Below are positions 35,980 through 55,872 of a DNA stretch of 64,000 nt, in pieces (the stretch's first letter is position 1; each line of letters begins with the position of its first letter). Position numbers and translations under genes: made by a program. Source of the DNA: Cyanosarcina radialis HA8281-LM2 (GTDB lineage Bacteria; Cyanobacteriota; Cyanobacteriia; Cyanobacteriales; CCAP-1448); NCBI GenBank assembly GCA_019359615.1, contig JAHHHA010000007.1:1-64000 (forward strand), in the 5' to 3' direction. The notes beneath the pieces are model-generated. The model had not been told where the DNA came from. It searched no databases and saw only the letters and a list, made by a program, of their open reading frames with translations.

Positions 35980-36730
35980 TGTTATCGATCTCCTTGAGAT
36001 AAGCTACGTCGAGCAAATTTAGATTTTGCTACTCTTTTGGAAAAAACACGACGAAAATGCCCATATTGGATTCGAGCAAATCATCTACAATTGTCTATTC
36101 TCAGCATAGGTAAGCTTGGCTTCATTGGCAATATAAATCTTTATGATATTTTTTTATTTAAATTATTTATTAAACTTAACACCCTTAGCGCATTTAGATT
36201 TAGGGAGCGTGTTTATTTGGCGATCGCTGATGCTTTATAATTTCTTTATGAGTTACATTGCCAGACTAGATTATTCTCGATGACTGTCAGCAGCGGTAAG
36301 GATTAATACCTAGTCTGAGGTTTGAATTTAAACGGTTGCAGGGTGGGAAAGAGCCGACGATCGCCGATATTTCCGACCTGGATTTTGCCATTTAAAATTT
36401 ATCTAGATCGGCAAAATTTTGCTCGATTGCTGTTAGTAATAAATAAGATTTAAACTTGGTATGGGGATCGGTAAGTGGCGATCGCCAGTCTCATTATTCC
36501 TAAGTGGATCGACGCTAAACGGTTATATAAGCTGGACTTAGAGCAGCGATCGGGGATATTTTGTCATCCAGCATTTATACGTATATAGCTCAAAGTTAAG
36601 ATAAACTGAATACTTAAATTGAGGTTGTTAATATCGCGTCTTAGAGGAATTCCTAAGCGTCAAGCAAGCATTCGAGCTTTTTTATTCGCATTCTTTCAGT
36701 TGACTTAGCAATTTTATTTGGCAAATTTCC
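35980..36730. promoter_or_regulatory. divergent ccm / ndhF3 control region
   Basis: This non-coding AT-rich region of 751 bases separates ccmK2 and ndhF3, so both promoters must lie here. Several short palindromic AT segments are visible, for example around 36240-36290 and 36595-36650. I cannot assign a specific LysR (NdhR/CmpR) box by eye. No convincing gene is present. Confidence 0.6.
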
Positions 36731-38584
36731 ATGAACGATCTTCTCACCCAAAGCACTTGGTGGGTGCCGATTTACGGCCTGATTGGCGCAATTTTAACCT
36801 TGCCGTGGTCAACAGGAATCGTTCGGCGTACAGGTCCCAGACCAGCGGCGTATTTCAATCTGTTGATGACATTGTTGGCGTTCGTTCACGGTTCTCTAGT
36901 GTTCGGCTTAGTGTTGAATCAAGAGCCGCAGCAGATCGTAGTTCACTGGCTTAAAGCTGCCGATCTAGATCTATCTTTCATGCTAGAAATCTCGTCCGTA
37001 ACCGTCGGGGCGATGCAATTGGTAACGGGCTTGAGTTTGCTCGCCCAGTTATTTGCCCTCGGTTATATGGAAAAAGATTGGGCGTTAGCCCGCTTCTTTG
37101 CGTTGATGGGATTTTTTGAAGCAGCAATGACTGGCGTGGCTTTGAGTAACTCTTTGTTCCTCACCTATGCCTTCCTGGAAATGCTTACCCTGTCAACCTA
37201 TCTGCTGGTAGGGTTTTGGTACGCCCAACCTTTGGTGGTGACAGCAGCGCGAGATGCTTTTTTGACCAAAAGGGTAGGAGACGTGCTGCTGTTGATGGGG
37301 GTAGTGGCGCTGGCCACTCAAGCTGGCAGCTTAGATTTTCCCGACTTATACGAGTGGGCGGAAACGGCTAATTTATCGCCGACAGCAGCCACGTTGTTAG
37401 GTTTGGGGTTGATTGCCGGACCTATAGGTAAATGCGCTCAGTTTCCGTTGCACCTGTGGTTAGATGAGGCGATGGAGGGGCCTAACCCCGCCTCGATTTT
37501 ACGAAATTCGGTGGTGGTCGCAGTTGGGGCTTTCGTGCTGATTAAACTTCAGCCAATTTTGAACGTTTCACCTGTGGCTTTGCAGGCTTTGGTGGTAATT
37601 GGAGCCACCACGGCGCTTGGGGCCTCGTTAGTCGCGATCGCGCAAATCGACATCAAGCGGGCCCTATCTCATTCCACCAGCGCCTACTTGGGTTTGGTGT
37701 TTATTGCCGTGGGGATGCAGTGGACGGGGTTTGCTTTGCTGCTGTTATTTGCCCACGCGATCTCCAAAGCCTTAATGTTCATGAGCGTAGGCGGGATAAT
37801 TTTGACCACCAACAGCCAAGATTTGACCGAAATGGGCGGTTTAGGCCCGCGAATGCCAGCCACCACGATGTCCTTTGTAGTGGGTGCAGCGGGGTTAATC
37901 GGCTTGTTGCCTCTCGGTGGATTTTGGGCGTTGCAGCAAGGAGTTGACACCTTTTGGTACGACAGTCCGGGGTTGGTGGCAGTCTTGTTGCTAGTTAATT
38001 TACTGACAGCGCTGAATTTAACGCGAGTATTCCGCCTCGTGTTTTTGGGAGAACCTCAGCCCAAAACCCGACGGGCCCCAGAAGTTCTCTGGCCGATGGC
38101 AGTACCGATGGTCAGCTTGATGGTAGTAACTCTCCTAGTTCCAGTCATGATGGCTCGGCTGTCAATTTTGCCAGATTGGGCTTACATCAACAAACCTGGC
38201 GTGTTATTACTAGTTTTATCTAGTTTGGCGGGAGTGGGAATCGGGTCGAAGATTTATCTGCAAAAAGCTTGGTCGCGATCGCTCCAATTCCACTGGCGGT
38301 TCATCCAAGATTTATTGGGTTACGACTTTTACGTCGATCGCCTTTATCGCTTTACTGTAGTTCTAATCGTCGATCGCCTTTCCCAACTCAATTCTTGGAT
38401 CGATCGCTATCTGGTAGATGGTTTAGTTAACTTCCTCGGTTTAGCTGCCATCTTTAGCGGACAAGGATTGAAATACAGTGCTTCCGGTCAATCTCAGTTG
38501 TACGTGCTAACGATCGTCCTGGGAATGACCGTTTTAGGCGCGATCGTCCTTTATCCCATCCTAGTGTCTTTGGGCGTGCTGTAG
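36731..38584 (+). CDS. ndhF3: NDH-1 subunit NdhF3 (inducible CO2 uptake)
   Basis: This 617-residue multi-spanning NuoL/MrpA-type antiporter subunit has the conserved core FPLHLWLDEAMEGPNPASIL near 238-257 and LFAHAISKALMFMSVG near 339-354. Next to ndhD3 and cupA it belongs to the NDH-1MS complex, which drives high-affinity CO2 hydration at the thylakoid. Plain respiratory NdhF1 is unlikely from context. It is the first gene of the operon. Confidence 0.92.
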   Translation: MNDLLTQSTWWVPIYGLIGAILTLPWSTGIVRRTGPRPAAYFNLLMTLLAFVHGSLVFGLVLNQEPQQIVVHWLKAADLDLSFMLEISSVTVGAMQLVTGLSLLAQLFALGYMEKDWALARFFALMGFFEAAMTGVALSNSLFLTYAFLEMLTLSTYLLVGFWYAQPLVVTAARDAFLTKRVGDVLLLMGVVALATQAGSLDFPDLYEWAETANLSPTAATLLGLGLIAGPIGKCAQFPLHLWLDEAMEGPNPASILRNSVVVAVGAFVLIKLQPILNVSPVALQALVVIGATTALGASLVAIAQIDIKRALSHSTSAYLGLVFIAVGMQWTGFALLLLFAHAISKALMFMSVGGIILTTNSQDLTEMGGLGPRMPATTMSFVVGAAGLIGLLPLGGFWALQQGVDTFWYDSPGLVAVLLLVNLLTALNLTRVFRLVFLGEPQPKTRRAPEVLWPMAVPMVSLMVVTLLVPVMMARLSILPDWAYINKPGVLLLVLSSLAGVGIGSKIYLQKAWSRSLQFHWRFIQDLLGYDFYVDRLYRFTVVLIVDRLSQLNSWIDRYLVDGLVNFLGLAAIFSGQGLKYSASGQSQLYVLTIVLGMTVLGAIVLYPILVSLGVL

Positions 38585-38716
38585 TAAGTGTGGAGTGTTA
38601 AGTGTGGAGTGTGAAGTTTTGACCTCACCCCCTGCCCCTCTCCTCGCAGGAGAGGGGAGTAAGATTCTTCTCGCCCTCTTTTTGACTTTTGACTTTTAAC
38701 TTTTGACTTTTCAAAG
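38585..38716. repeat. repeat-filled ndhF3-ndhD3 spacer
   Basis: The spacer holds GTGTGGAGTGT-type units, a CCCCTCTCC/GGAGAGGGG palindrome (about 38635-38658) and four GACTTTT/AACTTTT heptamers (38684-38711) ending just before the ndhD3 start. Confidence 0.85.
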
Positions 38717-40231
38717 ATGCTTAGTGCTTTAATCTGGTTGCCCATGTTAGGGGCTGCGATCGCAGGTTTTTGGCCTGGAACGCTTTCCCCAAAGTTAGCC
38801 CGTCAATTGGCTTTAGTAGTTGCTGGTGTGACATTTATTTGGTCGCTAGTCGTAGTTAGCCAATTTAATCCCCAAAGTTCCAGCCAGCAGTTTCTAGAGT
38901 TTGTCCCTTGGATCGATGCTTTAGGCTTGACCTATCATCTGGGGATTGATGGCTTATCTCTACCGCTGGTGGTTTTAAACTCTCTTTTGACTTGCATTGC
39001 CCTGTATGCCACCAACGATGCTATTCAGCGCCCTCGGTTTTACTACGCTTTAGTTTTGACTTTGAGTGCAGCCGTGGCTGGTGCATTCGTCGCTCAAGAC
39101 TTGTTGCTGTTTTTCCTCTTTTACGAGTTAGAACTAATTCCCTTGTATCTGTTGATCGCGATTTGGGGTGGTGCCAGACGGGGATATGCCGCCACCAAGT
39201 TTCTGATTTATACGGCTATTTCGGGAATTCTGATTTTGGCATCGTTTTTAGGCTTAGTTTGGTTGAGCGATGCTGCTAGTTTTGCTTACGAACCGCTGCG
39301 TCACCATAGTTTGCCTATGGCAACTCAATTGGTGCTGCTAGGCGGACTTTTAATCGGTTTTGGGATCAAAATTCCCTTAGTACCTTTCCATACCTGGTTG
39401 CCAGACGCTCACGTCGAAGCTTCAACTCCAATTTCAGTGTTGTTAGCAGGCGTGCTGTTGAAATTGGGAACTTACGGTTTGTTGCGGTTTGGATTCTGTT
39501 TGTTTCCCGAAGCTTGGGCCAGCATTGCACCTTGGCTGGCGACTTGGGCGGTAGTCAGCGTGTTGTATGGGGCCTTGAACGCGATCGCCCAAACCGATAT
39601 GAAGAAAATGGTGGCGTTTAGTTCGATCGGTCACATGGGTTACGTGCTAATAGCAATGGCAGCGGCTACCCCGTTGAGCTTGCTATCGACGGTGTTGCAA
39701 ATGATTAGCCACGGATTAATTTCTGCCTTGTTATTTTTGTTGGTAGGGGTGGTATATGCCAAAACTGGGACTCGCGATATTACTGTTTTGCGCGGACTGC
39801 TGAACCCCGAACGAGGTTTGCCGTTAATCGGCAGCCTGATGATTTTAGGGGTCATGGCTAGTGCGGGAATTCCAGGAATGGTGGGGTTTATTTCCGAATT
39901 TTTAGTATTTCGGGCCAGTTTTAAAGCGTTTCCAGTTCAAACCCTATTGTGCATGGTCGGGACTGGTTTAACCGCCGTTTACTTCTTGCTCCTAGTTAAC
40001 CGTGCTTTCTTCGGGCGACTTTCAGAAAATGTCACCAATTTGCCCCCAGTGCAGTGGGCAGATCGCGGCCCAGCGATCGTTTTAGCGGCTCTGATCGTGT
40101 TGCTGGGCTTGCAGCCGAGTTGGATGGTACGTTGGAGCGATGCTACTACGACTGGAATGGCAGTTTCACCTAACGCGTTGGTGCAGCCTGTTGTGAAGCA
40201 ACGTATCGCCCAAATTGATAATTTGAAATAG
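38717..40231 (+). CDS. ndhD3: NDH-1 subunit NdhD3
   Basis: This 504-residue NuoM-type subunit has FYELELIPLYLLIAIWG near 138-154 (with the functional Glu), PLVPFHTWLPDAHVEASTP near 221-239 and KKMVAFSSIGHMGYV near 293-307. It partners NdhF3 and CupA in the low-CO2-inducible NDH-1MS complex. It is co-directional with ndhF3 despite the repeat-rich spacer. Confidence 0.92.
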   Translation: MLSALIWLPMLGAAIAGFWPGTLSPKLARQLALVVAGVTFIWSLVVVSQFNPQSSSQQFLEFVPWIDALGLTYHLGIDGLSLPLVVLNSLLTCIALYATNDAIQRPRFYYALVLTLSAAVAGAFVAQDLLLFFLFYELELIPLYLLIAIWGGARRGYAATKFLIYTAISGILILASFLGLVWLSDAASFAYEPLRHHSLPMATQLVLLGGLLIGFGIKIPLVPFHTWLPDAHVEASTPISVLLAGVLLKLGTYGLLRFGFCLFPEAWASIAPWLATWAVVSVLYGALNAIAQTDMKKMVAFSSIGHMGYVLIAMAAATPLSLLSTVLQMISHGLISALLFLLVGVVYAKTGTRDITVLRGLLNPERGLPLIGSLMILGVMASAGIPGMVGFISEFLVFRASFKAFPVQTLLCMVGTGLTAVYFLLLVNRAFFGRLSENVTNLPPVQWADRGPAIVLAALIVLLGLQPSWMVRWSDATTTGMAVSPNALVQPVVKQRIAQIDNLK

Positions 40232-51198: not shown

Positions 51199-52236
51199 TT
51201 AATTCTCTATAGGTTCTCGGCGCGGGGTCTGGTTCATCTGATGGCGAAACTTGGAAACCATCTCGTAGACCTTGCGGCGAACGCGATTGGTATTGCCTAA
51301 CGGTTGATGTTCCGGTAAGGTATGCCACGGCGTGAACGATAAATTTTCTGCGAACTCCATCTGTGCGGGCGAATCGAAACTCTGTACTGGAATGCGGATG
51401 GTAGCAACTTTTTCAAAGGGCGACAAAGCCTCATCCCAAACAATAGTCGCATCTTCGATCGGCATCTTGACAGGATCGGTTTGCAACTGCACTAAAAAGT
51501 CAAAATCAACCTCTTCGGTCTTTAATTGCTCTGCCATGACTTCTTGTAAAAAATCCGATCCTGGGGCAGCAGGCATGGGATCGACTTTAGAGGAGCGAGG
51601 CTTGGCCGAAAATTTGATGGCATGGGGACCGAGCTTGGAGGGAGTCTGACTCCAATACTGAATTTGTAGCGGGTTAGAGACGCTCTTCTGGGTGGCAGAT
51701 AAAAGATTCTTGAACTCGTGCCAGCGCCATTTAAACGGATTCCAGCCGAAAAAGAACGACAGCAAATTTCCTCGACTAAATGCGGAGATAAAAACTACAT
51801 AGTCGGCGGTGTTTCTGACAAAGAACGCTTGGTTATTTGCCAAGATAAAATCCTGAGTCGTCTCAGACTTTTCCTCTTCCAACACTTTCTCACCCTCGAC
51901 TCCCAGTAATTTAATCGACATCCCGTGGGCATCTTTCTGGGTATCCGGTTTCATTTGTGCCGAACTCGAAGAAAACCGAATCCAAGCTTGATACGTTCGC
52001 GGTTCTTTGAATACGCCGTAACGAAGTCGCTCTGGAAGATTGTCATCGACGATAAATTCAGCTTGGACGCAACCGTGAGCTTTGGGGTGTTGGTCGCGCC
52101 GCACGGGTCGTATGCCTTGTTGATAGTCGCGATCGAGTTGTTGTTCGATCGCCTCCTGGATTTTCTGTATATCTGCTTCCTCCCCCGGAGGCGGATATTC
52201 TCGACCGAGTTCTAAAGTGGCATCTGTTTTACTCAT
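51199..52236 (-). CDS. catalase-like heme protein
   Basis: This 345-residue protein is of the small catalase-related family (SrpA/allene-oxide-synthase-like). QHPKAHGCVQAEF near 51-63 resembles the distal-His region of catalases. RYGVFKEPRTYQAWIRFSSS follows, and later DAHGMSIKLLG. It is much shorter than true catalases, so peroxide or lipid-hydroperoxide metabolism is likelier than H2O2 dismutation. It lies 53 bases after the DyP gene on the same strand. Confidence 0.78.
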   Translation of the reverse strand: MSKTDATLELGREYPPPGEEADIQKIQEAIEQQLDRDYQQGIRPVRRDQHPKAHGCVQAEFIVDDNLPERLRYGVFKEPRTYQAWIRFSSSSAQMKPDTQKDAHGMSIKLLGVEGEKVLEEEKSETTQDFILANNQAFFVRNTADYVVFISAFSRGNLLSFFFGWNPFKWRWHEFKNLLSATQKSVSNPLQIQYWSQTPSKLGPHAIKFSAKPRSSKVDPMPAAPGSDFLQEVMAEQLKTEEVDFDFLVQLQTDPVKMPIEDATIVWDEALSPFEKVATIRIPVQSFDSPAQMEFAENLSFTPWHTLPEHQPLGNTNRVRRKVYEMVSKFRHQMNQTPRREPIEN

Positions 52237-52269
52237 ATTTCTCGCGTCCCTTTATAGGTGTGGTAATTT

Positions 52270-52297
52270 CATAATTCATAATTCATAATTCATAATT
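52270..52297. repeat. heptamer CATAATT x4
   Basis: Four copies lie in the short gap between the DyP and catalase-like genes and run into the DyP stop region. Confidence 0.9.
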
Positions 52298-53708
52298 TTT
52301 TGACCCCTGCGAGGAAGTACAAAGCCGAAATACTGGGCAAAAAGAAGTAGCCGCCACCTTTGACTGAGACAAAACGGGGCAAATCGGTCAGTCGCCGACG
52401 CAGCAATTCGTGCTGGATCGTCATGCCGTCAGAGCCATCGTTATCCCCCAGCAGCGGATCTTTCTCGTCGTATAAGCCGTTGAATTTCCGGTTATCGATC
52501 CAGGTTTGCTGGACGAACTCAAACTGCCGCTGGATATTGGCATTGATAGAAAAGAACAGAACACCACGATCCTTACGGTCATCCTCAAAAATTCCTGGAG
52601 GTAACTTCTCGCCGTAAAGCGCCCCGCGTCGCACTAGGCGATGGCGGTTAACGCTTTTAATCGAGTCTTGAGGATTATCTCCCAGAGAATCGCGGGGGTT
52701 GACCCGGCGAACGTGCGCCCCTAGAGGACAGCGATATCCTCTAGGATCTTTTTCCATGTAATAGAAGTCGTTCTCAAAAGGCTTTGAAGGATCTTCGCGA
52801 TCGGGGGAATTTACCAAAGGAGTGCCATCGGGCCAGCGCCCCACCAACTTAGCCGCCCCTAATTCCCTTTCTGATTCGCTGAAGTTATCTCTGATATATC
52901 TGCGGAATCCAGCCACATCTTGATGCAGCTTGCGAAATACTAGATAGGTGCCGTTGCGTCCCAAGTCTTTTTGCTGCCCTTCGTTCGACTCTGGTTTCAA
53001 GTTGTTGTGGATATCGTCGCCAGCGGGGACAGTGGGCGTGGATGGTAGCAACTCGTACTCGTTCGGATAGCCTAAAATAAACTCCCCAGGTTTGATGACA
53101 GGTTGGTTGTCTGTATGTTTTCTAGGACTACCCTCAATGTTGGGCTGCGAGATCGCATCCTGGAAGCCAAAATGCTCTCTATCGTCGTCAGGTGGGGGTA
53201 AATATCCATGTTGTACCTCGCCCGCCAGTCGCAGGCTGTGGGACTGGGCTAGATCTATCTGGATTTGGCAGAGTTTTTCGATTTCGTTTGGCTGCCCTTG
53301 GACTATTAACAGGGCGTGGATTTCTGGCTTGGCTGTTCGATCGCCGCCAATCTCCCAGTTTTGGGGGGCGCTGTCTCCCGTATCGCCCAAGCGTCGCGAT
53401 CGCGCCTCTTCCGCTATGCCTTCAACAAATTCTGGGGAAAAGGTTTCGATCGACTTTTGCTTCAGTCCCATTGCGGCCAGTCCTTGGCAGGTGAAGGCAA
53501 CGTTCAGAGCCAATTCGGGTTTCTGGATTTTGCCATCAGGTCCCACGGGCCACTCGACACCAGTAGTTATTTGAGGGGCGATCTTCGCCAGCCATGCTTT
53601 AGCCTTAGCAGGATCGTCCGCGTGCAGAAAGAGATAACTAGAGTGTGAAAGATGACCGTAACCAGTGATGATGATTCCTTGAATATCTTGGGTTTCGAGG
53701 TCAGTCAT
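52290..53708 (-). CDS. DyP-type heme peroxidase
   Basis: This 472-residue dye-decolorising peroxidase has the distal GFQDA motif with Asp184 (family GxxDG variant). The proximal heme ligand is His332 in GAHVRRVNPRD. The length suits the larger C/D (class V) type, such as the enzyme known from Nostoc. No Tat or Sec signal is visible, so it is cytoplasmic. ATG 53708 is used, because the longer frame to 53777 reads into a dispersed repeat. It is flanked by two same-strand genes likely to form one operon. Confidence 0.9.
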   Translation of the reverse strand: MTDLETQDIQGIIITGYGHLSHSSYLFLHADDPAKAKAWLAKIAPQITTGVEWPVGPDGKIQKPELALNVAFTCQGLAAMGLKQKSIETFSPEFVEGIAEEARSRRLGDTGDSAPQNWEIGGDRTAKPEIHALLIVQGQPNEIEKLCQIQIDLAQSHSLRLAGEVQHGYLPPPDDDREHFGFQDAISQPNIEGSPRKHTDNQPVIKPGEFILGYPNEYELLPSTPTVPAGDDIHNNLKPESNEGQQKDLGRNGTYLVFRKLHQDVAGFRRYIRDNFSESERELGAAKLVGRWPDGTPLVNSPDREDPSKPFENDFYYMEKDPRGYRCPLGAHVRRVNPRDSLGDNPQDSIKSVNRHRLVRRGALYGEKLPPGIFEDDRKDRGVLFFSINANIQRQFEFVQQTWIDNRKFNGLYDEKDPLLGDNDGSDGMTIQHELLRRRLTDLPRFVSVKGGGYFFLPSISALYFLAGVKKL

Positions 53709-53740
53709 TGTATCTTTGCTCCTCAAGGATCGGGTGATGC

Positions 53741-53877
53741 TAAATCCGGTTATTAAAAGCATGAATCCAGCCCTCACCCCCTCCCCTCTCCCACCTCACC
53801 CTGCCCTCTCCTACAAGGAGAGGGAAAAGGAAGTTTCTTTTTATTGGAGAGGGGTGCCGGAGGCGGGGTGAGGGCAA
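53741..53877. repeat. dispersed palindromic repeat, copy 2 (uninterrupted)
   Basis: TAAATCCGGTTATTAAAAGC leads into a CCCTCTCCTACAAGGAGAGGG hairpin and GGAAGTTTCTTTTTA. It is the intact counterpart of the split repeat at 15.0-15.3 kb. Its first part is repeated at 57684-57758. Confidence 0.88.
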
Positions 53878-53925
53878 ACAACTTTTGCTAAGTGGATTTC
53901 ATATCATGCTCTCTCGCGATCGAAC

Positions 53926-55101
53926 TTACAAATTATAAGCACCCGTTAAAAACCGAGTGACGGCTCTGCTGAGTTCGAGATCGTTGAGAATATTCTTGAC
54001 CGTAAGATCGGGATAAGCGCTGTAGAAAACCTGAGTTGGGACTTGGTAATAGCGAATGATCTGCTTAAATCCTTCGATGTCGCGGCATCCACCCGTCGGG
54101 AAATTTATCGCACTGCCCCAAATGCTATTCATTCCCGTGCTGGCAAGGTCTACAAAATCGTCAATATAGTTTTCCCAACTCCCGTCGTAATTGCTTTCAA
54201 ACAGCAAATTCTCACCGTTATCGATGATGACCCAGCGGGCAAAGTGGATCGTAGCAATACCGTTCAGAGTACCCGGTTTAGTTTGAGGCCGTTTTTGGGC
54301 TTCCCCCAAAACCCATTTGAGTAAAGCTCGCTGGAACCACTGCGGTCTAATCGGTGAAACGATCGTCATTTGATTTTGCACTAGTACCGACTTATCTTCA
54401 ATCTGTGCCAACTGCTTAATCAGGTCTGGTTTTAAGGCGACTGGGTGGCGATTTTTTTTCCCAGGGCGCACGCCTACGAGCCATTCGATCGCCCTAGCAC
54501 GCAGCGATAGTTGAGGTTGGCGATCGATCTTTTCACCGGGCGACCATTTAGTCCCAGAGGATGTTGGTGTCGTGCGGGGCAGCAATTTAGATAACTGGTC
54601 TAACCATGTTTTGGCTTCCTGACGGTCTAGACCATCTAAGATTCGATCGATGGTTGTTCTCGTCTCCATCCCGTTGAGGATATTCTCGACTGTCGCTCCA
54701 GGAATGCCCACATAGAAGGTGTTAGCTTTAACTGAATGCTGTTGGATGAACTCTCCAAACAGCGTCGGGTCTTTGGCCGTACTAGGATCGTAATCGACAC
54801 ATTTGCTCCAGATCGATTCCATCCCCGAACCGATTTTTTCTACGAGTTCCTTCATGTAGTTTTCAAAAGTGCCATCGTAGTTGCTAGTAAAAAGCAAGCG
54901 CGGCTGTTTCGGATCGGTACCTAAGCCTCGATCTTTTAAAATTACCCATCGAGCGAAATGAGTCGATGGCGTGTCGCGGAAACGAACGTATTGATTTTCT
55001 TCAATATTGTTGCCGATTTCAGTCAAAATTGCGGTGAGAGCCTCAACTTCAACTTCTGTATCCTTAATCGGAACGATGACTGTTAATGCGTTTTGTTCCA
55101 T
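53926..55101 (-). CDS. two-domain protein of unknown function beside DyP and catalase-like genes
   Basis: This 391-residue protein is built from two related halves, about 20-165 and 265-391. Each half carries HFARWVI, a segment LLF(T/E)SNYDG(T/S)(F/W)ENY, then GM(E/N)SIW and a Pro-Gly or Gly-rich turn. The repeated halves suggest a pseudo-dimer with conserved His, Arg, Trp, Asn and Tyr around a pocket. I do not recognise the family. Its position as first gene of the heme-peroxidase string suggests a role in peroxide or lipid-oxygenation chemistry. Confidence 0.75.
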   Translation of the reverse strand: MEQNALTVIVPIKDTEVEVEALTAILTEIGNNIEENQYVRFRDTPSTHFARWVILKDRGLGTDPKQPRLLFTSNYDGTFENYMKELVEKIGSGMESIWSKCVDYDPSTAKDPTLFGEFIQQHSVKANTFYVGIPGATVENILNGMETRTTIDRILDGLDRQEAKTWLDQLSKLLPRTTPTSSGTKWSPGEKIDRQPQLSLRARAIEWLVGVRPGKKNRHPVALKPDLIKQLAQIEDKSVLVQNQMTIVSPIRPQWFQRALLKWVLGEAQKRPQTKPGTLNGIATIHFARWVIIDNGENLLFESNYDGSWENYIDDFVDLASTGMNSIWGSAINFPTGGCRDIEGFKQIIRYYQVPTQVFYSAYPDLTVKNILNDLELSRAVTRFLTGAYNL

Positions 55102-55872
55102 AGCCTCATCCTTTGGCTAATCTTGAGTTATGTAATAGAAATCTCTAACAATTCTTGTGGGATAGGTATCCTGCCATCGGTGTCAACTTAGAGCTATAGC
55201 CTTTGCTACACCATGGATTTCAGCCATAACCGCCAGAAGTTCAAAACTCCACAGCTTAAGCCCAAGTCCACTGATGAAGGTTAAGAATTAAATCCGGTAA
55301 TTGTGGGGCAGGCATCTTGCCTGCCTTCTTGTGGGACGGGCAAGATGCCCATCCCACAAGAATTACCAAATTATTTTTTTAACTTCCATAAGTGGACTAA
55401 ACTTACCAGAATTCAGTCCTCTTATGAAGGTTAAGAATTAAATTCGGTAATTGTGGGGTGGGACTCTTGTGGGACAGCCCAGAGGGCTATCCCACAAGAA
55501 TTACCCAATTATTTTTTTAACTTCCATTAGAGGACTTTAGCTATGAGGCAGGGGTTTTCAACCCCTGACGGATCGAGGCTTTGACCGTTAACTTGACACC
55601 AATGGCATCGGAGCCTGCCCTCAACCTTAATTTCTGGAGATATCTGTCTGAAAATGTTACTGCCCTGGGGTTTCAGCCATAGTTCTTCTTCTAACCAGAC
55701 TGACGCACAAGCAAAGGCGCTGTCTATAGCGTATGCGCTCAAACCAACTTCAGGCTAATTTTTTACTATTATTTATAAGTTTTAAAAGAATTTTCATAAT
55801 TGACGATCGCCTTTGGGTAAGATCGCATTATTATTGGGGTCAAGGGCGCTATTTTCCTGGTGAAAGTTAGAT
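55102..55872. repeat. repeat-filled intergenic region (composite repeat copies 4-5)
   Basis: Several modules of the composite repeat occur: CTTGTGGGAT palindromes near 55150, 55320-55365 and 55465-55500, AGAGGACTTTAGCTATGAG at about 55527, the CAGGGGTTTTCAACCCCTG hairpin at about 55547, and GACCGTTAACTTGACACCA. No gene is supported, and a frame at 55527-55742 lies over the repeat. Confidence 0.8.

Follow-up and report, generated by a model that had tools for sequence, protein, structure and literature searches.

A tandemly duplicated protein and its very probable genetic coupling to DyP-type heme peroxidases in Cyanosarcina radialis HA8281-LM2 and other bacteria

Introduction

What might a protein of two similar halves, without a recognisable family, be doing beside the genes of two heme enzymes? 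The question is raised by a locus in a 64,000-nucleotide stretch of DNA (hereafter the window; positions 1 to 64,000 of contig JAHHHA010000007.1, assembly GCA_019359615.1) of the cyanobacterium Cyanosarcina radialis HA8281-LM2. Three genes are found there which specify, in the order of transcription, a duplicated protein of 391 amino acids (AA), a DyP-type heme peroxidase (DyP) and a catalase-like protein (Table 1). An earlier interpretation based on the letters of the window (below, the sequence-only reading) had described them as a string of open reading frames (ORFs) in close order on one strand, and in this it was correct, all three lying on the minus strand at the positions which it gave. 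It had also regarded the three genes as a unit, and had proposed small-molecule or lipid binding in an oxylipin or peroxide pathway. The duplicated protein is referred to here by the working name DOM-DOM, a single such domain as DOM, and the catalase-like protein as CAT.

The comparison of related loci showed that the conserved core is the pair of DOM-DOM and DyP, CAT being one of two alternative third partners.

Coupling of DOM-DOM to DyP

The sample comprised 95 loci: the window, four loci from genomes of its phylum, ten plasmid loci chosen among 40 listed, and 80 loci obtained when genome contigs were scanned using a profile built on the C-terminal half of DOM-DOM, these 80 being the best of 563 encoding stretches. 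The locus of Deinococcus radiodurans (L096) was added because its DyP is known, giving a total of 96, while a copy of the window (L001) was excluded from the main counts. Profiles for DOM, DyP, CAT and cytochrome P450 (P450) were built and run against all six-frame ORFs of the 95 loci. The main counts are derived from this search; the neighbour clusters given further below came from a crude gene caller which missed some genes.

DOM and DyP occur together in 90 of the 95 loci. Two of the remaining loci (L003 and L004) are short, and wider stretches of the same places (L104 and L105) show both DyP and P450; in the other three (L032, L065 and L082) the contig ends 1–159 nt past DOM, making them uninformative on DyP. 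Counted over all 96 loci, DyP is next to or fused with DOM in 93, the other three being cut off at the contig end, and among the 80 scan loci alone it is present in 77, with three uninformative for the same reason. The arrangement is also constant: where both are present (90 loci, always on one strand) they are fused in 19, DOM lies upstream of DyP in 70, and the order is reversed in one (L045). The median distance between the ends of the two domains is 49 nt, and only one exceeds 300 nt (L012, 1097 nt). Since the window DyP, used as a query, revealed one other DyP gene in the 6.5-Mb source genome, adjacency by chance would be rare. The DOM pair was found fused to DyP, to P450 plus DyP (P450-DOM-DOM-DyP, 11 loci), and to CAT (CAT-DOM-DOM, L019 and L024). 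In two genomes of the same class (L104:4030-9764 and L105:3942-9774) a single string contains two separate DOM genes, a DyP whose profile match is split in two, and a P450 within a long ORF.

These data make it very probable that DOM-DOM is genetically coupled to DyP, a conclusion as firm as comparative data allow. The sequence-only reading would have been refuted by a well-studied family with an unrelated role, or by a neighbourhood not conserved in other genomes; neither was the case, the neighbourhood being conserved far beyond the source genome. A description of this pairing was not found in the literature searched, which was limited to open-licence articles, and it may be published elsewhere.

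The source genome contains a single copy of the DOM-DOM gene, and matches occur in only five of 292 genomes of the phylum, in single-protein and profile searches alike. Fifty-five plasmid records contain a match. There was none in phage records, and a phage origin was rejected on that ground. Judged from the record titles, the best 80 scan loci span about ten phyla (Bacteroidota, Cyanobacteriota, Armatimonadota, Myxococcota, Gemmatimonadota, Acidobacteriota, Planctomycetota, Actinomycetota, Chloroflexota and Pseudomonadota), and with a member of the Deinococcota from the plasmid set the total is about eleven.

The third partner

P450 was detected in 44 of the 96 loci and CAT in nine, with no overlap; within the 80 scan loci the numbers are 38 and five, and again never both. 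The chance of zero overlap is 0.003, uncorrected for relatedness. It is unusual that one position in a gene unit is taken either by a P450 or by a catalase-like protein, as here. The three-gene string of the sequence-only reading is conserved in its DOM-DOM and DyP part, while co-occurrence with CAT, which it had suggested counting, is confined to the nine loci mentioned. A single three-gene pathway as the core was rejected, neither P450 nor CAT being detected in 40 of the 95 loci although DOM and DyP are present; this figure is an upper bound, some of the loci being short. The commonest neighbour clusters, labelled partly by eye, are P450 (25 loci), cyclase-like (10), ABC-type ATPase (8), Crp-like (7) and enoyl-CoA hydratase-like proteins (7), and no polyketide synthase was named among the neighbour proteins scanned.

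Forty of the 44 P450 hits were aligned (at least 80–85% profile coverage). The I-helix acid is replaced by proline in 13 of these, including all 11 P450s that are fused to DOM, and the I-helix threonine is missing in five. P450s that use peroxides resemble such I-helix-altered enzymes, and the proline suggests that these proteins may use peroxide instead of O2. Two P450s next to a DOM-DyP pair carry an N-terminal glutathione S-transferase (L059:5194-7209 and L052:5051-7159). Related genes lie directly upstream of the alphaproteobacterial P450-DOM-DOM-DyP fusions in 10 loci (L006, L007, L009, L066, L079, L081, L089, L093, L094 and L095), the annotation being adenylate/guanylate cyclase in L006 and SARP-type regulator in L007. 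Downstream of these fusions, seven loci have a Crp-like gene. Control of the heme-enzyme fusion by cAMP is possible.

The window CAT passes the PF00199 cut-off of 25 bits narrowly, and may be placed by this match among the catalase-related proteins. Its distal histidine and the RxxxY motif are invariant in eight aligned sequences including that of the window, a partial copy in L023 having been excluded. The residue preceding the distal histidine is Gln or Glu in the window protein and its four closest complete relatives, and Ala in three others. In a profile search of solved structures the match to 3e4w (E-value=3.3e-8) extended up to the C-terminal region; yeast catalase A (1a4e) scored slightly better (1.3e-8), over the core only.

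Duplication and family searches

The N-terminal and C-terminal halves of DOM-DOM show 32% sequence identity (89 bits, E-value=4e-27) and are also predicted to fold alike; the tandem duplication, which the sequence-only reading had noticed, is therefore genuine and beyond chance. That reading had also found no family for it. Searches of Pfam and NCBIfam gave none above the cut-off, the lone Pfam line being Bacillus_HBL at a chance-like E-value of 0.2. Neither did 71 aligned two-domain members match any family of these databases convincingly: their weak matches were scattered over five Pfam families, with one or two members each, and one NCBIfam family with a single member. The alignments of two-domain proteins were built from 82 references, and seven (L028, L053, L054, L065, L070, L081 and L089) were left out as near copies or truncated. 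The ABM family (PF03992) and the SchA/CurD-like profile were unmatched by DOM-DOM at E≤1, and absent from the families matched by any of the 71 members at E≤0.01. PADLOC returned zero matches for five proteins, and a sequence search of the PDB with DOM-DOM one chance-like stretch only. Profile matches to CSC1-like ERD4 proteins (E-value=7e-4) over positions 80–230 are unexplained; the hydrophobic linker described below is a possible cause. Membership of a known family was rejected, as Pfam, NCBIfam, PADLOC and the PDB searched by sequence gave only weak or chance-like matches, and by these searches DOM-DOM would add a family that is absent from Pfam and NCBIfam.

Predicted fold and conserved residues

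The sequence-only reading had recommended a structure prediction. The AlphaFold model, made with 71 sequences (pLDDT 87.6, pTM 0.88), consists of two ferredoxin-like halves, each of the order beta-alpha-beta-beta-alpha-beta-alpha. Using Foldseek, the best match of the model was WhiE-ORFI (9lmn; E-value=5.7e-6), followed by Abx(+)O (9ltx; 7.3e-4). VIA-align gave Z-scores of 14.7 over 223 residues for 9lmn and 11.4 for 9ltx; two putative monooxygenases came next (10.5 and 10.0), and all others were at 6.9 and below. With its elements in the right order, and with 9lmn aligned across both halves, DOM-DOM is predicted to be a tandem alpha+beta barrel of the ferredoxin-like superfamily, to which the ABM/SchA-like proteins are the nearest in fold.

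The most general feature of the domains is a histidine at the start of strand 2, which is kept in 181 of 183. In the first halves this histidine and the aspartate are each present in 82 of 83 sequences, and in the second halves the aspartate is present in 70 of 83; His286 and Trp290 occur in all 71 rows of the two-domain alignment. The pattern used in the genome scan spanned residues 301–310 of the second half, where conservation was partly selected for; the strand-2 histidine and the first half lie outside it. In the model His48 and His286 are predicted to sit in the second and sixth strands. A second recurrent histidine (70 of 183 domains), residue 122, closes an additional helix that precedes strand 4. 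Histidines in the helices are otherwise rare, not exceeding six of 183 in the first helix of a half and 22 of 183 in the second, and the 183 domains did not match heme sites of the IsdG, OxdA or DyP type, in which the axial histidine is on alpha2, alpha4 or alpha3. The alpha+beta barrel superfamily also includes DyP itself, and several heme sites have been noted in it (PMC4835899). Because the superfamily has heme-binding and other members, and because each half keeps its histidine, a ligand-binding role for DOM-DOM appears reasonable.

A segment of 19 residues with a mean hydropathy of at least 1.6 lies between the halves in 72 of the 83 two-domain proteins, and one of at least 2.0 in 65. The same test inside the two halves gave 7 and 26 of 83 at the lower threshold, and 0 and 5 at the higher. 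Thirty-six of the 83 proteins have two or more such segments, and these pairs would suit a membrane hairpin. The segment is present in 40 of 41 proteins from P450 loci.

The window peroxidase and its Deinococcus counterpart

The window DyP exceeds the cut-offs of the two Pfam profiles for DyP_N and Dyp_perox_C, PF21105 (36.4 against 27.5 bits) and PF20628 (20.7 against 20 bits), and falls just below that of NCBIfam TIGR01413 (Dyp_perox_fam; 97.7 against 100.5 bits). Its closest solved relatives are 8re3 (E-value=1.6e-63) and 8re2, both DrDyP of D. radiodurans, and by these matches it is assigned to the class V-like DyP peroxidases. In an alignment of 87 sequences including those of the window and of D. 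radiodurans (at least 80–85% profile coverage required), the catalytic aspartate of GXXDG, the proximal histidine and the distal arginine are present in all 87. The D. radiodurans record (isolate DRR11) has the order DOM, DyP, catalase family gene, and its DyP matches 8re2 and 8re3 over their whole length; apart from the engineered change, one natural difference was noted.

At pH 7.5 DrDyP is inactive, with a six-coordinate low-spin heme (PMC10820274). According to the same article, its inactivity at physiological pH has reasons beyond the mutation which the authors tested, and they speculate that interactions with other proteins govern its activity; the article also calls it unclear what DyP peroxidases do physiologically and on which substrates they act. 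Neither an operon nor a catalase turned up when its text was searched.

Proposed function and alternatives

Tentatively, and with slightly less than even confidence, we propose that DOM-DOM is a dedicated accessory subunit of the adjoining DyP. It would bring DyP together with a second heme enzyme in a single docked assembly, and its barrel would hold a hydrophobic substrate or peroxide through the conserved histidine and aspartate, thereby switching DyP on or supplying its real substrate. The third enzyme, catalase-related in the window and a P450 elsewhere, would act on the same peroxide or on its product. The most likely substrates would be organic, perhaps lipid, hydroperoxides or lipid-like compounds, and where the third enzyme is a P450, the barrel would be brought to the membrane by the hydrophobic linker. 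A subunit that docks its partners and holds a ligand would explain most simply the fusions, the fold and the conserved residues together. Its parts differ in strength: a direct complex of DOM-DOM with DyP is likely, while organic or lipid hydroperoxide chemistry is a possibility that we would not call probable. The latter is suggested by the hydrophobic linker and by the kinds of third partner; the case for it is at its weakest for the window protein, which is without that linker. Of the binding function put forward in the sequence-only reading, ligand binding therefore appears reasonable, and its lipid part is weakly supported.

Several observations weigh against this proposal. The counts are not independent, as the sample was drawn from the best matches and close relatives are among them. 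In the 40 loci with neither third partner, 20 neighbour proteins from 18 loci were mixed and without a repeated Pfam theme, and hence no fixed pathway is apparent. The I-helix acid is kept in 27 of the 40 aligned P450s, which would allow ordinary O2 chemistry. The window DOM-DOM has no hydrophobic linker segment, and only two of six scored proteins from catalase-type loci have one. An AlphaFold model of a natural DOM-DOM-DyP fusion (L044, 12 sequences) was of too low a quality (pLDDT 57.9) for an interface to be recognised. Lipoxygenase (PF00305) was unmatched in the source genome, a weak negative, since 14 control genomes did not match PF00305 either and the DyP known from the source genome escaped the Pfam DyP profile.

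Among the other explanations is that DOM-DOM is itself a protein of heme or a heme-like cofactor, with the histidines of strands 2 and 6 as axial ligands and the trio as a multi-heme redox unit. The axial histidine of siroheme decarboxylase is on beta2 or beta6 of its barrel, one of several heme sites in the superfamily (PMC4835899), which agrees with the near-universal strand-2 histidine and with residues 48 and 286 of the model; the recurring partners, moreover, all belong to heme-enzyme families. Conserved His and Asp would be expected equally of a cofactor-free active site, however, and the best folds are of the ABM type, so that we regard a heme-binding DOM-DOM as unlikely. An extension of it, in which a heme-binding barrel with strand-borne ligands forms a membrane- or lipid-facing multi-heme assembly with DyP and the catalase-related protein or P450, making or clearing oxidised lipids, is quite a long shot. 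The same folds, polyketide ABM/SchA-like WhiE-ORFI and Abx(+)O, would favour an ABM-like oxygenase or cyclase that needs no cofactor and belongs to a small biosynthetic pathway, with DyP performing the radical step, and ABM proteins are reported as monooxygenases or as members of chaperone-like complexes (PMC6689052). Yet the frequent neighbours are those listed above, with no polyketide synthase named among them, and DOM-DOM is distributed over some eleven phyla, often as a bare two-gene unit; this explanation appears distinctly improbable.

A general H2O2 stress operon, in which DOM-DOM merely stabilises DyP and there is no special substrate, would agree with the rise of both DR_A0145 and DR_A0146 after UVC/vacuum (PMC5731708), and with a DRA0146 transcript 2-fold lower in a CRP mutant without H2O2 (PMC4868304). 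It is rendered rather improbable by the inactivity of DrDyP near neutral pH (PMC10820274) and by the description of KatE1, not DR_A0146, as the most important catalase of D. radiodurans (PMC7143949); a P450 as the alternative partner is also ill-suited to simple detoxification. The oxylipin pathway of the sequence-only reading, with CAT as an allene oxide synthase, has in its favour the catalase-related sequence with its RxxxY motif and the fact that it alternates with P450, as allene oxide synthases too are known in two kinds, P450 and catalase-related. The structural relative 3e4w/3e4y and the linker of most relatives also lend a wider lipid peroxide pathway weak support, against which stand the weak lipoxygenase negative and the linker-free window protein. 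For oxylipin synthesis proper, Gln/Glu or Ala precedes the distal histidine, not the Thr of coral allene oxide synthase, and DyP is not a known source of fatty-acid hydroperoxides; we consider it highly improbable.

Layout of the locus

Table 1. Genes and protein regions of the DOM-DOM locus in the window.
Feature	Position	Strand	Evidence and remarks
391-AA DOM-DOM gene	53926..55101	-	ORF; no family above the cut-offs of Pfam or NCBIfam
First ferredoxin-like half, residues 1-157	54631..55101	-	AlphaFold model; His48 (codon 54958-54960) on strand 2, Asp76
Inter-domain linker, residues 158-240	54382..54630	-	Model confidence low at 175-190; not hydrophobic here
Second ferredoxin-like half, residues 241-386	53944..54381	-	AlphaFold model; His286 (codon 54244-54246) on sixth strand; Trp290
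DyP-type heme peroxidase gene, class V-like	52290..53708	-	Pfam above cut-off; closest solved structures 8re3/8re2
Catalase-related gene, 345 AA	51199..52236	-	PF00199 26.2 bits; His50 and C-terminal RxxxY (Arg320, Tyr324)

The DyP start was set by eye at ATG 53708 instead of GTG 53777. The intergenic gaps are 217 nt between the DOM-DOM and DyP genes and 53 nt between those of DyP and CAT. The trio is flanked by an SRP54 gene on the same strand, 238 nt further on, and by a divergent calcineurin-type phosphoesterase gene. Promoter-like and terminator-like sites in the region were close to the shuffled expectation (4 against 6.0, and 9 against 5.7, sd 2.6). Upstream of the DOM-DOM gene, at 55150-55540, are two similar blocks with 72-nt and 55-nt repeats (88% and 87% identical) at spacings of 138 and 150 nt; these have palindromic cores and resemble a small repeat of mobile or intergenic type. 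Between the DyP and CAT genes (52268-52295) there is an exact repeat of the 14-nt unit TTCATAATTCATAA. Elsewhere in the window, the 4-kb block at 36001-40000 has an AT skew of -0.207, far from that of the remainder. The octamer GCGATCGC occurs in 62 copies against 1.3 expected, which we take to be a cyanobacterial habit.

Comparison with known systems

The small catalase-related proteins 3e4w/3e4y, presumably from M. avium paratuberculosis, are comparable to the window CAT in size (320 against 345 AA) and match it to near the C-terminus, but the similarity is low; the 3e4w protein reportedly has peroxidase activity towards organic peroxides. WhiE-ORFI (9lmn) and Abx(+)O (9ltx), both ABM/SchA-like tandem proteins, align over both halves of the DOM-DOM model. 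In contrast to them, DOM-DOM has no match to the ABM/SchA sequence families and a different neighbourhood, and the strand-2 His/Asp signature and, in most relatives, the hydrophobic linker between the domains belong to its own family. With siroheme decarboxylase it would share the predicted fold class and, by its model, a conserved histidine on strand 2 or 6 (PMC4835899), whereas it differs from the heme sites of IsdG, OxdA and DyP in its few helix histidines. A multi-heme lipid assembly, if it existed, would be a bacterial counterpart, made from other parts, of the fungal dioxygenase-P450 fusions.

Another close known system is that of DrDyP (DR_A0145; 8RE2/8RE3). The gene order is that of the window, the partner preceding the peroxidase gene and a catalase family gene following it. 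The D. radiodurans partner (WP_051618841), however, has one domain where the window protein has two, and the fifth residue of GXXDG is Met in DrDyP and Ala in the window DyP, in which the position of Leu373 is occupied by Val. With the partner gene only 1 nt upstream of the DrDyP gene, the question of the role of DyP is directly testable by co-expression, and the actual function of these peroxidases could be approached through a partner that is found beside them, or joined to them in one protein, across about eleven phyla.

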